Virus record (IMG/VR): IMGVR_UViG_3300020057_000035
Location: 47,849 to 111,848 of that record
Direction: 5' to 3' (one strand)
DNA from: a virus
DNA: 64,000 nt
Both the position numbers and the translations under genes were made by a program. The notes under the pieces were generated by a model that worked only from the letters and a program-made list of their open reading frames with translations, did not search any database and had not been told where the DNA came from. Positions 15,989 to 52,713 of this stretch are shown here, one piece after another; position 1 is the first letter of the stretch, and every line of letters starts with the position of its first letter.

Positions 15989-16093
15989 CCACAATGCCGC
16001 TGAGAAGCTGTAGGAACGCGCTGAGACAGCTTTGTGGTTAAAAAGCTGTCTAACTACTACTTTTCTAAATGAGGGCGGAAAACGTGTTTCTGC
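15989..16093 (+). ncRNA. Structured RNA element, copy A
   Basis: Intergenic region between 15980 and the HNH gene. Stems: CCACA(15989-15993)/TGTGG(16033-16037), AAGCTGT(16005-16011)/ACAGCTT(16026-16032), then a shared single-stranded block CTAACTACTACTTTT, then GCGGAAA(16075-16081)/TTTCTGC(16087-16093) closing an ACGTG loop. A homologous element on the other strand at 54110-54240 has the same order with different stem sequences. It may be an independent RNA or a 5' leader of the HNH gene. Confidence 0.6.
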
Positions 16094-16142
16094 TATACTT
16101 AGTATATCGGAGTATACAATTATTTATACAGATTGTGTTGGA

Positions 16143-16493
16143 ATGTCGGGGGGAAAAAGAAAAAAGACATGTATGCGATGTTCTTCTGCTTTACCTCCAC
16201 GTAGAATAAAGTGGTGCTCTAATAAGTGCAGCAATTGGTGGTTCGATAATCATTGGTATTTTAAAGCCAGACGTAAGGTAGTATTAAAAGCGCGGGTACT
16301 TGACAAAAGAAAAGTTTTAGGGTACACGTGTGCTATATGTAATACTTTAGTACAAATAATAGAAGTCGATCATATAATTAGAGCAATGGGAACGCATAAT
16401 ATATTAAGCTGTCTACATCATCAAGATAATCTTAGGGTATTATGCATTCCCTGCCATAGAATAATAACCAAGGAACAAAGGAAAACAAAGTAG
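16143..16493 (+). CDS. HNH endonuclease
   Basis: 116 residues from ATG 16143; an earlier in-frame ATG at 16032 lies inside the structured RNA and is unlikely. N-terminal zinc-like CMRCSSALPP...WCSNKCSNWW, then the HNH core: CAICNTL, VDHIIRA, DNLRVLCIPCHRI. A free-standing HNH gene typical of phages (homing or packaging-associated). It sits just upstream of two methyltransferases. Confidence 0.8.
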   Translation: MSGGKRKKTCMRCSSALPPRRIKWCSNKCSNWWFDNHWYFKARRKVVLKARVLDKRKVLGYTCAICNTLVQIIEVDHIIRAMGTHNILSCLHHQDNLRVLCIPCHRIITKEQRKTK

Positions 16494-17209
16494 AAAATCA
16501 AGTAATACAAGATGATTGTTTAGCTGTTCTAAAAACTCTTCAAGATAAATGTGTTGATTTAGTTGTAACAAGTCCACCATATAATATGCGAACTCGTATT
16601 AGAAATGGTAAATATACTACGAGAGAAAAGACAGAACACTTTAGTAAAAAATATAAACACTTTGATGATGCATTATCAATAGAAGATTTTTATGAATTTC
16701 ATAGCTTTGTATTAAAAGAATTATTGCGTGTATCAAAGATAGTTTGTTACAACTTTCAAATAGTAACTGGCAGTAAAGAAGCATTTTTTAAGATCATTGG
16801 AGATTTTAACAAAGACATAAAAGATATTATTATTTGGGATAAAAACACAGGTCAACCAGCAATGCATCAGCAGGTATTAAATAGTTGTTATGAGATGATT
16901 TTAGTATTAGAAGATGATAAAAAAGCAGGTAGACTTATACAAAACGCAAAATTTAAAAGAGGAGAAATGAATAATATTTTGCGTATAGGTAGAGGTAAAA
17001 AAATATCTGATATTCATGGTGCTATTTTTCCAGAAGAGTTACCAGATATTTTAATAAAAGCATTTTCAAACGAGGGCGATGTTGTTTTAGATCCTTTTGC
17101 TGGAAGCGGAACCACTTTAGTATCCGCAAAGAAAAACAACAGGAAGTATGTAGGGATTGAAATAAGTTCAGAATATGTAAACAGTATCAATAAGAGACTA
17201 GAGGAATAA
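16490..17209 (+). CDS. DNA methyltransferase (beta group), non-standard start
   Basis: About 239 residues. Motif IV TSPPYN precedes motif I DPFAGSGTT, the order of the beta group; SPPY is commoner in N4-cytosine enzymes, so base specificity is open. The first ATG (16586) would cut off motif IV, yet the open frame upstream (VENQVIQDDCLAVL...) aligns with the start of the paralogue at 17211 and contains no ATG, GTG or TTG. AAAGGA lies about six bases before GTA 16490, taken here as the probable start. Alternatively the original start has been lost. No restriction enzyme partner is apparent. Confidence 0.75.
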   Translation, partial: VENQVIQDDCLAVLKTLQDKCVDLVVTSPPYNMRTRIRNGKYTTREKTEHFSKKYKHFDDALSIEDFYEFHSFVLKELLRVSKIVCYNFQIVTGSKEAFFKIIGDFNKDIKDIIIWDKNTGQPAMHQQVLNSCYEMILVLEDDKKAGRLIQNAKFKRGEMNNILRIGRGKKISDIHGAIFPEELPDILIKAFSNEGDVVLDPFAGSGTTLVSAKKNNRKYVGIEISSEYVNSINKRLEE

Positions 17210-17210
17210 T

Positions 17211-17921
17211 TTGGAAAAAAACACAGTTACACAAGGAGATTGTCTTTTAGTAATGAAGGACATACCTAATAAATCAATAGATATGATTTTATGCGATCTT
17301 CCTTATCAAATTACTAAATTAAAATGGGATATCATTATACCTTTTGATTTATTGTGGGAACAGTACAAAAGAATTATTAAAGACAACGGCGCAATAGTTT
17401 TGACAGCAAGTCAACCATTTACTAGTGCTTTAATTATGAGCAATATCAAAATGTTTAAATATGAATGGATATGGCAAAAGTCAAAAGCAACAGGATTTCT
17501 TGATTGTAAATTAAAACCACTCAACAACTATGAAGACATAGTGATCTTCTCTAATGGAAAAACAACCTACAACCCACAAATGATTAAGGGAAAATTACAT
17601 AAGAACGGTGGTGGGAAAACTGGACCAGCAGAAGTTTATGGTAACTTTGCAGATAGAAAGTCTAGTGAGACTGATTTGTATTATCCAAAGAGAATTATTC
17701 AATTTACAACTGAACACGGTCTTCATCCCACCCAAAAGCCAGTAAAACTATTTGAGTATCTTATCAAGACCTACACAAATGAAGGAGATCTTGTATTAGA
17801 TAATTGTGCAGGCTCAGGGACTACTGGTGTAGCTGCTATAAATACTGGTAGAAATTATATGCTTATTGAAAAAGAGCAAAAATATGTAAACAGTATCAAC
17901 AAGAGATTAAATACGACATGA
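17211..17921 (+). CDS. DNA methyltransferase (beta group)
   Basis: 236 residues; TTG start behind AGAGGAATAAT. Motif IV is CDLPYQITKLKWD and motif I is DNCAGSGTTG, with HPTQKPVKL before it, as in N6-adenine/N4-cytosine phage methylases. Paralogous to the frameshifted gene at 21581-22379 (shared IIIPFDLLWEQYKRIIK). It follows another methylase by one base and overlaps the next gene by ATGA. Likely protects phage DNA from host restriction. Confidence 0.85.
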   Translation: MEKNTVTQGDCLLVMKDIPNKSIDMILCDLPYQITKLKWDIIIPFDLLWEQYKRIIKDNGAIVLTASQPFTSALIMSNIKMFKYEWIWQKSKATGFLDCKLKPLNNYEDIVIFSNGKTTYNPQMIKGKLHKNGGGKTGPAEVYGNFADRKSSETDLYYPKRIIQFTTEHGLHPTQKPVKLFEYLIKTYTNEGDLVLDNCAGSGTTGVAAINTGRNYMLIEKEQKYVNSINKRLNTT

Positions 17922-19830: not shown

Positions 19831-20165
19831 TTGAGAATCCCTAGGATACCATTTACAAATATCCCTCCTGTAACAAATAAAGCACCTCCTAGTAAAAACC
19901 AAATAAAAGCATTATCTAATTTATTAAGTGTTACTATTACAGCATTAATTGGTCCAACAACACCATCATGCTTTCCTTTTCTGTATGCCTTTTTTTCTAT
20001 TACTTCAATATCATCTAATGAATGTATTGTTTCATGGGAAGCACGCCACAGCTTTATTCCTGCAAGTGTGCCATTCATGGCTTTGAATTGATTTTCAAGT
20101 CCAGTAGTACGTTCTATAATAACAGTTAACTGCTTTAATACTTCTACTTCAAAAGCTTCTGCCAT
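19827..20165 (-). CDS. Membrane-anchored coiled-coil protein (XhlA-like architecture)
   Basis: 112 residues: N-terminal helix with heptads (EVEVLKQLTVIIERTTGLENQ), linker, and a C-terminal transmembrane segment (FIWFLLGGALFVTGGIFV). This resembles haemolysin XhlA or spanin-like accessory lysis proteins in layout; no specific motif proves it. Confidence 0.55.
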   Translation of the reverse strand: MAEAFEVEVLKQLTVIIERTTGLENQFKAMNGTLAGIKLWRASHETIHSLDDIEVIEKKAYRKGKHDGVVGPINAVIVTLNKLDNAFIWFLLGGALFVTGGIFVNGILGILK

Positions 20166-21513: not shown

Positions 21514-22379
<866 letters not shown>

Positions 22380-47407: not shown

Positions 47408-47495
47408 CCTCTTTTATGTTCCATCTATCTTTAATTATTTTTCCATTTTTAATTATTAAAATTGCTTTTTCTTCTTTATCTGAACTTCCTACCAC
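47388..47495 (-). CDS. Small hypothetical protein
   Basis: 35 residues from GTG 47495, eight bases after AGGAG (VVGSSDKEEKAILIIKNGKI...). It bridges the helicase 3' end and the MazG start, overlapping both. Confidence 0.45.
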   Translation of the reverse strand: MVGSSDKEEKAILIIKNGKIIKDRWNIKEVVLYES

Positions 47496-48781
47496 TGTAT
47501 TTCTCCTACTTCGTCTATTTCATCTTCAAAATCTGGCATTATTTGAAATATATTTCCTGTATCTACATCAAAGTGTAAATATTGTTTAGTTAGGATTTGT
47601 TCTCCATCTCTGTGTTTAACCACTCTGAATATCCTTTGATCTTTTACTCCTCTTTTTGCGGCTAAAGATATTACTCTGTTTGCTGCTTCTGATAAACCCA
47701 TGCCATATGCTTCTTGTCCTAGCTCTGCTGTTTCGTCTGCTGCTAGTACTGCTTCTCTTTTAACCTGAGATCCAGCTATAACAGTACACCCTTGATATTG
47801 AGCTAGCCCTTTAATTTGTTCTGCGGAAGATTTCATATTTTCCCAAGTTTTACCCCCATTTGATATCAAATGAAATCCGTCTACAAAAACTAGATCTGGT
47901 TTATATTCTCGCATTAAGGAGGTAATATCATCAATAGTAAAAGCTCCTTTATCCCCAGAGTCTCTAATAATAAAATCTTTTCTTCCTTTTGCTGCTATTT
48001 CTCTTAAATATTTTTCATATGCTTTTGGCTCTTGTGTTCCATTCCTAATTCCCCTGTTGGACAAGGTATATCCCATAAATCTACCTATAACTGGGTCTAG
48101 TCTCGCATTAATGTCACTTATTGTATTCTCTGGAGACATAAACAATACTTTAGCATTACTATAATAATACGCATATGCAGCAAAATATATGAGAAGCCAA
48201 GACTTACCTGTATTTAGTGGCCCATATACTCCTACTACTTCTCCAGGTTTCCACGTATCTCCTTTTTTATCAAACACACCTAAACCAGTAGGTATTCCTA
48301 TAGACTCTCCATTATCTATTTTTATTCTTTTCTGTAAATAATCTTCAAATCTAGCTAAAGCATCTGCGTCAAAGAAAGATTGTCTAGTATTTACTGGGCG
48401 ATGTAAATCAGATAACGCTAGGATTAGTTTTTGAATGGTGTTTAGGGGATCTATGGATAATTTATCACTTAAGGTCAACAAGGCTATTTGAGCGCGTTTT
48501 GAGACTGTCCTGAGAGACAATTCAGTTAGATACACATCAGAATCTTCAAGATTTTCTTTAAGCACAACATTAAAACTTGAATTAATGTCTTCTGTTGATA
48601 CTTTTCTATTTTCCTTAAATCTAGAAACTAAATATTCCCATATTTGAGAATTAATATCTAGATTAAAACTATCTTCTTTAATTCCACTTTCTAATGCAAA
48701 ATTAATTCTCTCTGTAGTTAAATGTGTTGATATAAAACATATTTCTAATTCTTCTGGTGTTATATTGTTAAGTCTGATAAT
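47489..48781 (-). CDS. dnaB: DnaB-like replicative helicase with ATT start
   Basis: 430 residues from ATT 48781. Unwinds DNA at the fork. The ATPase has Walker A VYGPLNTGKSW, LVFVDGFHLIS (Walker B), VIAGSQVKREA and RVVKHRDGEQ. The first ATG/GTG/TTG in frame is GTG 48565, which would delete a well-formed DnaB N-terminal domain (NNITPEELEICFISTHLTTE...). The frame opens with ATT six bases after GAGGAGGT, the best ribosome binding site in this operon. Translation from AUU is therefore the best reading. Confidence 0.9.
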   Translation of the reverse strand: MIRLNNITPEELEICFISTHLTTERINFALESGIKEDSFNLDINSQIWEYLVSRFKENRKVSTEDINSSFNVVLKENLEDSDVYLTELSLRTVSKRAQIALLTLSDKLSIDPLNTIQKLILALSDLHRPVNTRQSFFDADALARFEDYLQKRIKIDNGESIGIPTGLGVFDKKGDTWKPGEVVGVYGPLNTGKSWLLIYFAAYAYYYSNAKVLFMSPENTISDINARLDPVIGRFMGYTLSNRGIRNGTQEPKAYEKYLREIAAKGRKDFIIRDSGDKGAFTIDDITSLMREYKPDLVFVDGFHLISNGGKTWENMKSSAEQIKGLAQYQGCTVIAGSQVKREAVLAADETAELGQEAYGMGLSEAANRVISLAAKRGVKDQRIFRVVKHRDGEQILTKQYLHFDVDTGNIFQIMPDFEDEIDEVGEIQW

Positions 48782-49214
48782 CTTCTACCTCCTCTGGATC
48801 TAATTTCTCTAGCATCCTAATTGCTTTATCACTGTCGTCTGTGTCTATCCAATATCCTATCCAATAATCAATAGCTTGCTGTAATCTTGATCCATCTTTT
48901 TCTTTATATGCTATTAATGAATACTTTAACGCTCTGTCTGGTACAGGAACTTTTGATCTAATAGATGAGATAGTTCCTATGTGTAATGCTGTTTGTGGTT
49001 TAAACCTCTCTTTATACATATCTACTGTTAATAAACACAATAGTTCTATTTGATGTTTATCTGGTATTAATTTAATTAATTCTTTTACCTTACTTCTAGT
49101 TACTGCATACTCTAATTGTAACAATTTTCTATTATATTTTTGCAATAATCTATCATAAATAATATCAGCTAGTTCTTGGTCTTGTGGTTTAGTTTTTTTG
49201 GACGAGACTGCCAT
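48768..49214 (-). CDS. Hypothetical protein upstream of dnaB
   Basis: 148 residues, helical (ADIIYDRLLQKYNRKLLQLE..., IDYWIGYWIDTDDSDKAIRM). Overlaps polA (26 bases) and dnaB. Could be a helicase loader or accessory by position; no motif supports it. Confidence 0.6.
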   Translation of the reverse strand: MAVSSKKTKPQDQELADIIYDRLLQKYNRKLLQLEYAVTRSKVKELIKLIPDKHQIELLCLLTVDMYKERFKPQTALHIGTISSIRSKVPVPDRALKYSLIAYKEKDGSRLQQAIDYWIGYWIDTDDSDKAIRMLEKLDPEEVEDYQT

Positions 49215-52200
49215 TTTCCACCGTGTATTCTATTCCTTCTCCCCAATACTGTCCTATTTTAACATTAGCTACAAGCTTTACCGGAGGTACTATGTTGTAT
49301 TTCTTAAAGATTGCTGGGTTTTCCATTATCTCTGCTATTTTTATTCCCCACTCTTCTGCTTTGTCTTCACGTATTTGATAAAGAACAGCATCGTGAATAT
49401 CTCCTACTAATAAACCTTCGGATAATGGCATTATTTTATGTAGTTCATTCATAGCATTTAATGTTAAGTCTCCACCTAATCCTTGTACCGGTGAATTACC
49501 TGTTATAAACACTGAACCTCTTCTTCTAGCTACCCAGAAAGAATTTTCAACAGTAGGACACCAAACTCCTATTTTTTCATTTCTTTTTTCGAACTGTCCT
49601 TCAACTATTTGTGTTTTGTTTCTTTTAAGTAAGGAAACTAAATTAACTATACTAGGCTTAGGGATGTTTTTCATATTTTCAGACAACTTTCTTTCATATT
49701 TTGAATTATCTTTAGTGTATACCGTAGTAGCTATACCTAATAATGAGCATAAAATCTGAAAAAGATCTGTTTGTTCTTTATCTGCACATATAAATCTTCT
49801 GCCTTCTGTTCCATCACCCAGCATCATTGCTTCTAATAATAACTCTGCTTGTTTTCTAGTAAGAGAACAAATAAAATCTATATTTAGTCTCTTATTTGGT
49901 AATAGTTGTCTTATCTGCTTAGCTGTTTCATCAGTAAATGACCAGATGAAACAATCACTCCATTTAATATGAGATTTTTTATGTTTAATGTTTAATGATT
50001 TAAATATATTATCTATTATTTTTACTTTTTCTGAATTCGCTCGATTACTTTGAGTGAGAGATATAGTGGATAGATTATATTTTGGATCAGTTTTAAAGTG
50101 TCCGTCTGTTAAAATCCACCCACATAATGATATAAAATAATCATTATATATAGATATTTCTGGAAAAACATAATTACCAGTTCTGTGTATTCTATTATCT
50201 CCCCATATACCTATATTCTCTGAAGTAACTTCCCTATTTTTACCTGTACTTTTACTTGTAGTCAACCATCTATGATTTGACGTAGTTAATGCATTAAAGG
50301 ATTTAGATTTAAATTCTATTATCTCCCCTTCATATTCCGGGTAAATATTTATTTTTTCAACTTTTTCCCACTCTAATTCATTTGAGATGAAGTTTTTAGT
50401 AAGAACTAAGTCCTCATTGTTTAGTTGATTATAATATAACCACCCTCTCTTAGAAAGAATTTCAGTTTCAAAATCAACACAATTTATTCCTTGGGCTTTA
50501 GCTAACCACTGTTGATAAGAATCATCAGACAGTACTCTAATAAGGTTTCTATTTCTTCCTATAGGGCTCTCTATACTTCTATGTTTAATTACATATCTCT
50601 TAGTTCTCTCGTGCCATCGAACGAGATCGGGAAAAGCTTCGAAGAATCTATCCTTAAATAACTTGGCTTCTTCTATAGTAACTTCTACTCCGAACATATC
50701 TCTTGCATATTCTTTGAATGAAGTATGACTCATTCCATAAATAAAACCAAGAACAATAGCTTTTCCTTTTTGTCTATCTTCTTTTGTTACGTTTTCTTCT
50801 TTTATTCCTAAAACTAAAGATGCAATTTTTCTATACGCATCTCCACCTTCTTTAAAAATAGCCAGTAGGTTTTCTTCTTCTGAAAACCAAGCAGCAATTC
50901 GTACTTCGACCATACTGAAGTCAACCTCTATCAGCTTCCAACCTTTTGGAGCACCTAAACAACCACGTAATCGTGCGTCTCTGGGTACTTGTTGAAGATT
51001 TGGTCTATCACAAGATCTTCTTCCTGTTACAGTTCCAGTTAAATTAAAATACGGATGTATTCTATTGTCGTTATCTATAAACTCTTGCCATTGAACAAAG
51101 AATTGTAATAATTTAGTTACTTTCTTCAATTCTAATAAACTTTTAATTGCCGGATGAACAAGCCTCTTTAATGTTGCTTCATTTACTTGAGCTTGTCCTG
51201 TTTTTTCTGTTGTGCTTATCGGAACGAGACCTAATCCATCTGGTGTAGGACTAAATAGCCATTTCCTAAGAAAGAAAGCATTATCAATATCTGCTGTTTC
51301 TCTAAAATCTTCTGGAATAAAACTTAATACTTTATTTTTAAGTTCTATTTGATCTAATAGTAGTTGTTTTCTTTCTATAGATACCTTTTCTGGATCTACC
51401 CAAATACCATTTAGTTGCATCTGTAATACAGACTTCATTGCAGGAAGTATTAGGTTTTTCATCAATAAAGCTTGAGATTGTCTATTTCGTAACTTACCAG
51501 CTAATTTTTCATAAAGTAAATGAGTGTAACCAACATCGAATCCACAGTAGGATCCCATTCCATTTTCACCCCAAAGATCAGACGGTGGTTTGCCATCATC
51601 TCCCCATTGTTGAATACCTTTACCCCAATTATCTACCCCTAACTCGCTTCCGGCCACATTAAGAAGACTTAACGGTAGTTCTTCATTAAGAAGATGAGCA
51701 GCAACCATAGTATCAAATGCAATAGTGAAATTAATAGGTAAAGTATAATTATATCTTTCAGATAGACGTATTAGGTGTCTTAAATCGAACACAACATTAT
51801 GATTATTTATTTTATTATTAAATAAAACATCACATAGTTTAGTTACTACTTTTTTCATTAATTCTCTATCTTCGCTAAACGGAGATTGAGGATGTTCTAA
51901 AGGTATATGAAAAACCCGTATACCTTTTTCATCTCTATCACCAACAGTAATAGCCATTGTCCACATTTTAGAGTACTCAGGCAAGTAGTCCTTAAATCCT
52001 CTTGTTTCTGTATCAAAAGTAAATACTTTCTTTTTACTATTAACTAGTTCTGTTATTGCGCTATTAAATTGATCTATATTCTCTACATGAATGATGTTTA
52101 CTTTAGGAGCAATGTTTTCTCCTTTAATTATTCTTGCAAATTTTGCAATATCACTAATAAAAAGATCATGATATTGTGGGTTAGTAAGTATATATTCTGA

Positions 52201-52713
52201 TGTAAAAGTAGGTACTACTTTTACATTTCTTGTTTCTGTAAGCAACGGATATTCTATAATCTGTCCTCTACGCTTATCTAATCCTGCTCTGTGCTGAAAG
52301 AAATAAAAAGGAAGTTTACCTAAAGATAATATAGCTATTGGTTTAATATCTTCTATTTCTTTATCTAAATATAAAGAAGTGCATGTTTTCATCGCCGCCT
52401 CTTCTTTTCCTGTATAAAACTCAGAAACTCTGCACTTTGTAGAATAAGTACTATATAAACTACTTAATTCTATTCCCTCATCAGCTAGTACCTGCTCTAA
52501 GTATTGTCTTGCTTTCGTAGGAATAATTCTTCCATAAACATCATCTACATCATTTGGGCTATCAAAAACAATCATACCTTTTGTTTGTAATTTACCTTCT
52601 CCATAAATACATACGTTTTTTGTATATTTATGCAGCTCGCAATTGGTACAATCTTTATTTCTTTTTTCTTTTGAATATTGAATTATTTCATTACTGAGAG
52701 GATCTAGTTCCAC
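49189..52713 (-). CDS. polA: DNA polymerase I (family A) fused to a UDG-like domain, with intein
   Basis: 1174-residue precursor, 845 after splicing. Residues 1-190: uracil-DNA-glycosylase family 4-like domain with Cys22, 25, 94 and 111 in the C-x2-C...C-x16-C pattern of a [4Fe-4S] cluster. Next a 3'-5' exonuclease (FTFDTETRG, HNVVFDLRHL). Then family A polymerase: LIEVDFSMVEVRIAA (motif A), KAIVLGFIYGMS (motif B), QGIN-SPVQGLGGD and GDIHDAV (motif C). A similar UDG-polymerase layout is known from SPO1-type phages. It replicates the phage genome. Confidence 0.95.
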   Translation of the reverse strand: MELDPLSNEIIQYSKEKRNKDCTNCELHKYTKNVCIYGEGKLQTKGMIVFDSPNDVDDVYGRIIPTKARQYLEQVLADEGIELSSLYSTYSTKCRVSEFYTGKEEAAMKTCTSLYLDKEIEDIKPIAILSLGKLPFYFFQHRAGLDKRRGQIIEYPLLTETRNVKVVPTFTSEYILTNPQYHDLFISDIAKFARIIKGENIAPKVNIIHVENIDQFNSAITELVNSKKKVFTFDTETRGFKDYLPEYSKMWTMAITVGDRDEKGIRVFHIPLEHPQSPFSEDRELMKKVVTKLCDVLFNNKINNHNVVFDLRHLIRLSERYNYTLPINFTIAFDTMVAAHLLNEELPLSLLNVAGSELGVDNWGKGIQQWGDDGKPPSDLWGENGMGSYCGFDVGYTHLLYEKLAGKLRNRQSQALLMKNLILPAMKSVLQMQLNGIWVDPEKVSIERKQLLLDQIELKNKVLSFIPEDFRETADIDNAFFLRKWLFSPTPDGLGLVPISTTEKTGQAQVNEATLKRLVHPAIKSLLELKKVTKLLQFFVQWQEFIDNDNRIHPYFNLTGTVTGRRSCDRPNLQQVPRDARLRGCLGAPKGWKLIEVDFSMVEVRIAAWFSEEENLLAIFKEGGDAYRKIASLVLGIKEENVTKEDRQKGKAIVLGFIYGMSHTSFKEYARDMFGVEVTIEEAKLFKDRFFEAFPDLVRWHERTKRYVIKHRSIESPIGRNRNLIRVLSDDSYQQWLAKAQGINCVDFETEILSKRGWLYYNQLNNEDLVLTKNFISNELEWEKVEKINIYPEYEGEIIEFKSKSFNALTTSNHRWLTTSKSTGKNREVTSENIGIWGDNRIHRTGNYVFPEISIYNDYFISLCGWILTDGHFKTDPKYNLSTISLTQSNRANSEKVKIIDNIFKSLNIKHKKSHIKWSDCFIWSFTDETAKQIRQLLPNKRLNIDFICSLTRKQAELLLEAMMLGDGTEGRRFICADKEQTDLFQILCSLLGIATTVYTKDNSKYERKLSENMKNIPKPSIVNLVSLLKRNKTQIVEGQFEKRNEKIGVWCPTVENSFWVARRRGSVFITGNSPVQGLGGDLTLNAMNELHKIMPLSEGLLVGDIHDAVLYQIREDKAEEWGIKIAEIMENPAIFKKYNIVPPVKLVANVKIGQYWGEGIEYTVENGSLVQKN
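49495..50481 (-). other. PolA intein (LAGLIDADG type)
   Basis: 329 residues from Cys of GIN-C to Asn of ITGN, Ser+1 (SPVQG). Block A CVDFETEILSKRGWLYYNQL, block B ALTTSNHRWLTT, helices CGWILTDGHF and EAMMLGDGTE, both with Asp. The residue before the terminal Asn is Gly, not His. It lies in the polymerase active-site region. Confidence 0.92.

Follow-up and report, generated by a model that had tools for sequence, protein, structure and literature searches.

Introduction

In Staphylococcus aureus, a set of AUU and AUA starts lies behind extended Shine-Dalgarno (SD) sequences, among them those of infC (AUA), cvfC1 (AUU), and ccpN (AUA), and in the same report the non-canonical starts of cvfC1, ccpN, and citZ gave about 10% of the reporter output of AUG in poor medium (PMC13009471). 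Initiation factor levels bear on such starts: raised IF3 inhibits non-canonical initiation, and when IF3 is overproduced, re-initiation is reduced and the propagation of M13 is impaired (PMC2268962). Among titles and abstract openings of the literature on AUU or ATT starts and phage, we found no phage replication gene. In E. coli, infC reportedly begins with AUU and is under IF3 feedback, and pcnB is likewise said to have an AUU start. AUU-mediated initiation has reportedly been found in IS911 as well, where an SD-type site lies inside the upstream frame, and gene 26 of phage T4 has an internal AUU start. A preliminary description of the locus considered here had held that AUU starts are known mainly from infC; infC is among the known cases, but the S. 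aureus starts, pcnB, and IS911 make this statement too narrow.

Here we analyze a dnaB-like helicase gene in a window of 64,000 nucleotides, positions 47,849–111,848 of a 111,848-base virus record. The gene has no canonical start codon at its conserved N terminus, and we think it probable, judging from the sequence, that this phage DnaB-type helicase is translated from an AUU at 48781, driven by an extended SD that overlaps the upstream gene. A phage replicative helicase is an unexpected place for an AUU start.

Results

The helicase frame opens one codon before ATT

Read on the minus strand from 48793, the start region is AGGAGGT AGAAG ATT ATC AGA CTT AAC AAT ATA ACA CCA. In the dnaB frame TAG (48787–48785) is followed by AAG and then by ATT (48781–48779), from which 430 codons run to the stop at 47491–47489. 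No ATG, GTG, or TTG occurs in this frame before the GTG at 48565 (codon 73), 72 codons after ATT. The frame read from ATT 48781 in the preliminary description, with a stop just before it and 72 codons free of ATG, GTG, and TTG, was thus confirmed on the minus-strand sequence. The spacing of six bases given there needs correction: five bases separate GAGGAGGT from ATT, and six are obtained when counting from GGAGG. The upstream gene has a coding score of 41.2 in its frame, with negative scores in the other two frames, and gave no family match in Pfam or PHROG. RNA folding around the dnaB start is unremarkable (z = −0.42), and a masking RNA structure at this site was rejected, there being nothing special at that value. 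Coordinates are collected in Table 1.

Table 1. Features of the dnaB start region in window coordinates; L007, L011, and L090 are relatives discussed in the text
Feature	Position	Strand	Evidence or remark
dnaB-like replicative helicase, 430 aa, proposed AUU start	47489..48781	-	frame; Pfam DnaB_C, PHROG 19, and DnaB fold matches
Proposed start codon ATT	48779..48781	-	aligned spacing 5 from AGGAGGT; equals spacing of the L090 ATG
ATC, second-best candidate start	48776..48778	-	aligned spacing 8
Extended SD AGGAGGT, within last codons of upstream gene	48787..48793	-	
In-frame stop TAG closing the dnaB frame upstream	48785..48787	-	
Upstream gene, 148 aa, 14-nt overlap with dnaB	48768..49214	-	coding score; same position in L007 and L011
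GTG, first canonical in-frame start, codon 73, without SD	48563..48565	-	

The first 72 codons encode the conserved DnaB N-terminal domain

The dnaB product carries a DnaB_C/RecA-like motor (PF03796, E = 3.4e-12, 46.7 bits versus a cut-off of 27) and matches PHROG 19 (E = 1.5e-38). In an AlphaFold2 model built from 36 sequences (mean pLDDT 89.6), a helical N-terminal domain is joined to the motor, with predicted helices between residues 9 and 124; those within residues 1–72 span residues 9–19, 23–31, 42–56, and 63–70. The full-length model matches the solved DnaB structures of E. coli and V. cholerae (best E = 7e-21; TM no higher than 0.71 among the top 50 listed), and a search of solved structures with the sequence of the product gave no match.

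In their own frame codons 1–72 score 28.5 bits, as against −12.6 and −23.2 bits in the other two. When 72-codon controls were scored, none of 308 wrong-frame stretches reached 28, and the right-frame median was 29.3 (n = 150); the dnaB frame was left out of training, and the control stretches came from long ORFs, nearly all of which were also in the training set. A profile of 34 non-redundant relatives, excluding the window protein itself, matches residues 11–66 of the isolated 72 residues with an E value of 2.9e-10 (from a two-sequence search). Because of the coding score, the match to a profile made from relatives only, and the predicted helices, we conclude that codons 1–72 are real protein and encode the conserved N-terminal domain of DnaB.

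The strongest Shine-Dalgarno sequence precedes ATT

The dnaB SD forms a duplex with the 16S tail at an energy of −13.3, the strongest bin among 117 called canonical-start genes being −11 (genes were called with our own simple codon model and no published gene finder). It is also the only 7-base match; the best among 81 scored canonical-start genes is 6 bases, found in 4 genes. The claim that dnaB has the best ribosome binding site therefore holds for duplex energy and for match length, but AGGAGGT as a sequence is not rare in the window (3 found versus 4.86 expected). AGGAGGT followed after five bases by ATT was found twice, versus 0.13 expected. The second occurrence is at 19876–19890 on the minus strand, inside a called ORF (contig 67675–68013).

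In relatives, the same start site has a canonical codon

A single-protein scan of IMG/VR found no relatives, and neither near-identical viral strains, including a sister strain, nor relatives in bacterial genomes (with the protein of L007 as query) were found. Two alignment-based IMG/VR scans yielded 127 loci with relatives of dnaB. In 39 of them the match stops short of the N terminus; 88 were examined, 5 of which run off the locus, leaving 83 relatives with complete N termini, a set that includes near-duplicate loci and hence does not amount to 83 independent cases. In every one of the 83, an ATG, GTG, or TTG lies no more than 30 codons from residue 1 of the window protein. Since a chance start codon is common in a span of 60 codons, position is the informative part, and most of the canonical starts listed fall at residues 4–10.

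The closest relative, L007 (44% identity), shares the gene order polymerase–small gene–dnaB–primase, and its dnaB starts with GTG at residue 5, behind GAGGAG. In L090 (37%) the sequence is AGGTAGAGG-ATG, its counterpart in the window being AGGTAGAAG-ATT, and in L011 the ATG of dnaB comes directly after the upstream stop TAA. Distant homologues in named phages, e.g., Gordonia phage GMA6, start within a few residues of the same point. Relatives start at the same place and do so with canonical codons; the window alone has none there. Given the aligned starts of the relatives, the dnaB start site is where the preliminary description had placed it. None of the 83 comparable relatives is without a canonical start, and the AUU feature itself is therefore not conserved; conservation of the non-canonical start is seen in some members of the AUU-plus-extended-SD class and does not strictly define it. 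The dnaB locus has the long, properly spaced SD of this class (AGGAGGT, aligned spacing 5) and no canonical start at the conserved N terminus.

The polymerase gene of the window (49189–52713, minus strand) is of the DNA polymerase I type. A stretch in its C-terminal half interrupts the match to phage polymerases and looks like an intein or other insert.

AUU does not seem to be used widely in the contig

In six of 87 genes scoring at least 25, dnaB included, no canonical start lies close to where coding is predicted to begin. The other five are a gene cut by the end of the contig, a false alarm, since it has a good ATG (44727), an ORF that is GIY-YIG-like by eye, a broken methyltransferase, and a methyltransferase whose frame overlaps that of an HNH-like ORF. 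Inspection by eye showed no strong SD ahead of a near-cognate codon in any of these five genes. Each has another explanation or is an accessory gene lacking an evident strong SD, so the phage seems not to use AUU widely.

Two of the methyltransferase frames deserve a description of their own. At 16032–17209 (plus strand), an ORF that is HNH-like by eye overlaps the frame of a DNA methyltransferase that has no canonical start before SPPYN; the HNH-like frame ends in ACA AAG TAG, with AAGGA repeats upstream, so that a −1 frameshift fusion with the methyltransferase is conceivable. At 21581–22379 (minus strand), the frame of another methyltransferase is interrupted immediately after DLPYG; compared with its paralogue at 17211–17921, it has about ten additional bases.

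Two regions elsewhere in the record were also noted. The first 20,000 bases of the contig (L087 1–20000, outside the window) have 47% GC, compared with 32.5% in the window, and contain no ORF of at least 180 aa. The minus strand has 49 near-identical extended −10 promoters there and the plus strand none; an SD and a start follow within 90 nt after 30 of the 49, and the ORFs are small (median 66 aa). This arrangement resembles an early region in which each small gene has a promoter of its own. At L088 17171–17623 (plus strand), an ORF is separated by an in-frame TAA from the next open frame, which has a Fic-like HPFIDANKR (by eye).

Initiator tRNAs are marked by a 1:72 mismatch, three G-C pairs in the anticodon stem, and purine 11:pyrimidine 24. 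A phage-encoded initiator was rejected, as none of the 13 tRNAs found has the full signature. One tRNA-Met(CAT) (L088:15034–15107, plus strand), located beside a tRNA-Ile(TAT), is partly initiator-like and falls short of the full set of marks: it has an unpaired C1·T72, a stem of G·T, C-G, and G-C, and T11:A24. No match to PF00707, the IF3 family, was found in the contig.

Alternative explanations

The presence of canonical starts in 83 of 83 comparable relatives is also what would speak for a wrong contig base, or a private mutation of the assembled population, at 48779, the working phage having ATG there. A single substitution at this position gives ATG and leaves the overlapping upstream frame unharmed, and some accessory genes of the contig are broken. 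However, the long core genes are unbroken, and in the single broken gene inspected in detail the difference from the paralogue amounts to about ten bases and is not a base-call error. Consensus error rates are near 1e-5 per base, and two E. coli genes are known to have an AUU start. An error would have to strike one of the three bases of a start codon, an event that over about 120 genes is, by estimate rather than computation, rarer than a true AUU at the E. coli rate. We regard error or private mutation, the main rival reading, as unlikely. ATC (48778), the codon after ATT, could also serve as the start, alone or together with ATT, the same SD then having an aligned spacing of 8, inside the usual range; but the spacing of 5 at ATT equals that of the ATG in L090, and use of ATC seems very unlikely.

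The upstream and dnaB frames overlap between TAG 48785 and TAA 48768 with an SD-like site upstream, an arrangement in which a +1 ribosomal frameshift stimulated by the SD could join the 148-aa frame to dnaB. Yet, as judged by the prfB rule, no good +1 re-pairing site is available among the overlap codons (GAT TAT CAG ACT), and relatives that have the upstream gene start dnaB independently (GTG in L007, ATG after TAA in L011), with no fusion; a frameshift origin is highly improbable. Equally hard to credit is a truncated helicase from GTG 48565 as the sole product. This is the start that a gene finder limited to ATG, GTG, and TTG gives, but it has no SD, and beginning there would, in the model, cost the protein four of its six N-terminal helices, in a part where coding constraint is seen. 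A recoded stop was rejected: upstream of AAG the dnaB frame meets several TAGs inside the well-scored upstream gene, and TAA, TGA, and TAG each end called genes.

Discussion

Though unproven, the AUU start of dnaB is well supported, and it would add a new case to a known rarity. In the mechanism that we propose, AGGAGGU in the last codons of the upstream gene, being well spaced, would hold the 30S subunit over AUU, and the ordinary initiator tRNA of the host would start there despite the third-base mismatch; the predicted N terminus is fMet-Ile-Arg-Leu-Asn-Asn-Ile-Thr. From the start region we infer that ribosomes use this AUU, with a yield that should lie below that of AUG and that, by analogy with other non-canonical starts, would fall when IF3 rises. 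IF3 control of dnaB through AUU is plausible on the same analogy. An inefficient non-canonical start is not what one expects in an essential gene, although small amounts of a hexameric helicase probably suffice. That the lineage has put dnaB under start-codon control, with AUU holding down DnaB relative to the product of the gene before it and the onset of replication responding to the IF3 or ribosome state of the host, is a speculation that we consider quite doubtful.

If dnaB is translated from AUU, a core phage replication gene starts at a codon that ordinary gene finders ignore, and its N-terminal domain is therefore silently lost in annotation (358 versus 430 aa). Such a start would add support to an emerging rule, namely that AUU can be licensed by an extended SD, and it would offer a simple way of asking whether the replication of a phage depends on initiation-factor levels.

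Like phage dnaB, E. coli infC and pcnB are full-length genes with an AUU start, but infC encodes IF3 itself, whereas dnaB encodes a phage helicase for which any link to IF3 is inferred. IS911 is a mobile element that, like the phage, has an AUU start with an SD-type site inside the upstream frame; it combines AUU with −1 frameshifting, and no shift site was seen at dnaB. T4 gene 26 shares with dnaB the AUU start of a phage gene, but there the start is internal and yields a shorter product, whereas in dnaB it would be the main start of a replication gene. The S. aureus starts are described as chromosomal and conserved and are backed by ribosome profiling, with reporters for cvfC1 and ccpN, whereas the phage case is a single gene, known from sequence only and not conserved; in both, AUU or AUA stands behind an unusually strong, well-spaced SD, and cvfC1 is the published parallel (PMC13009471).
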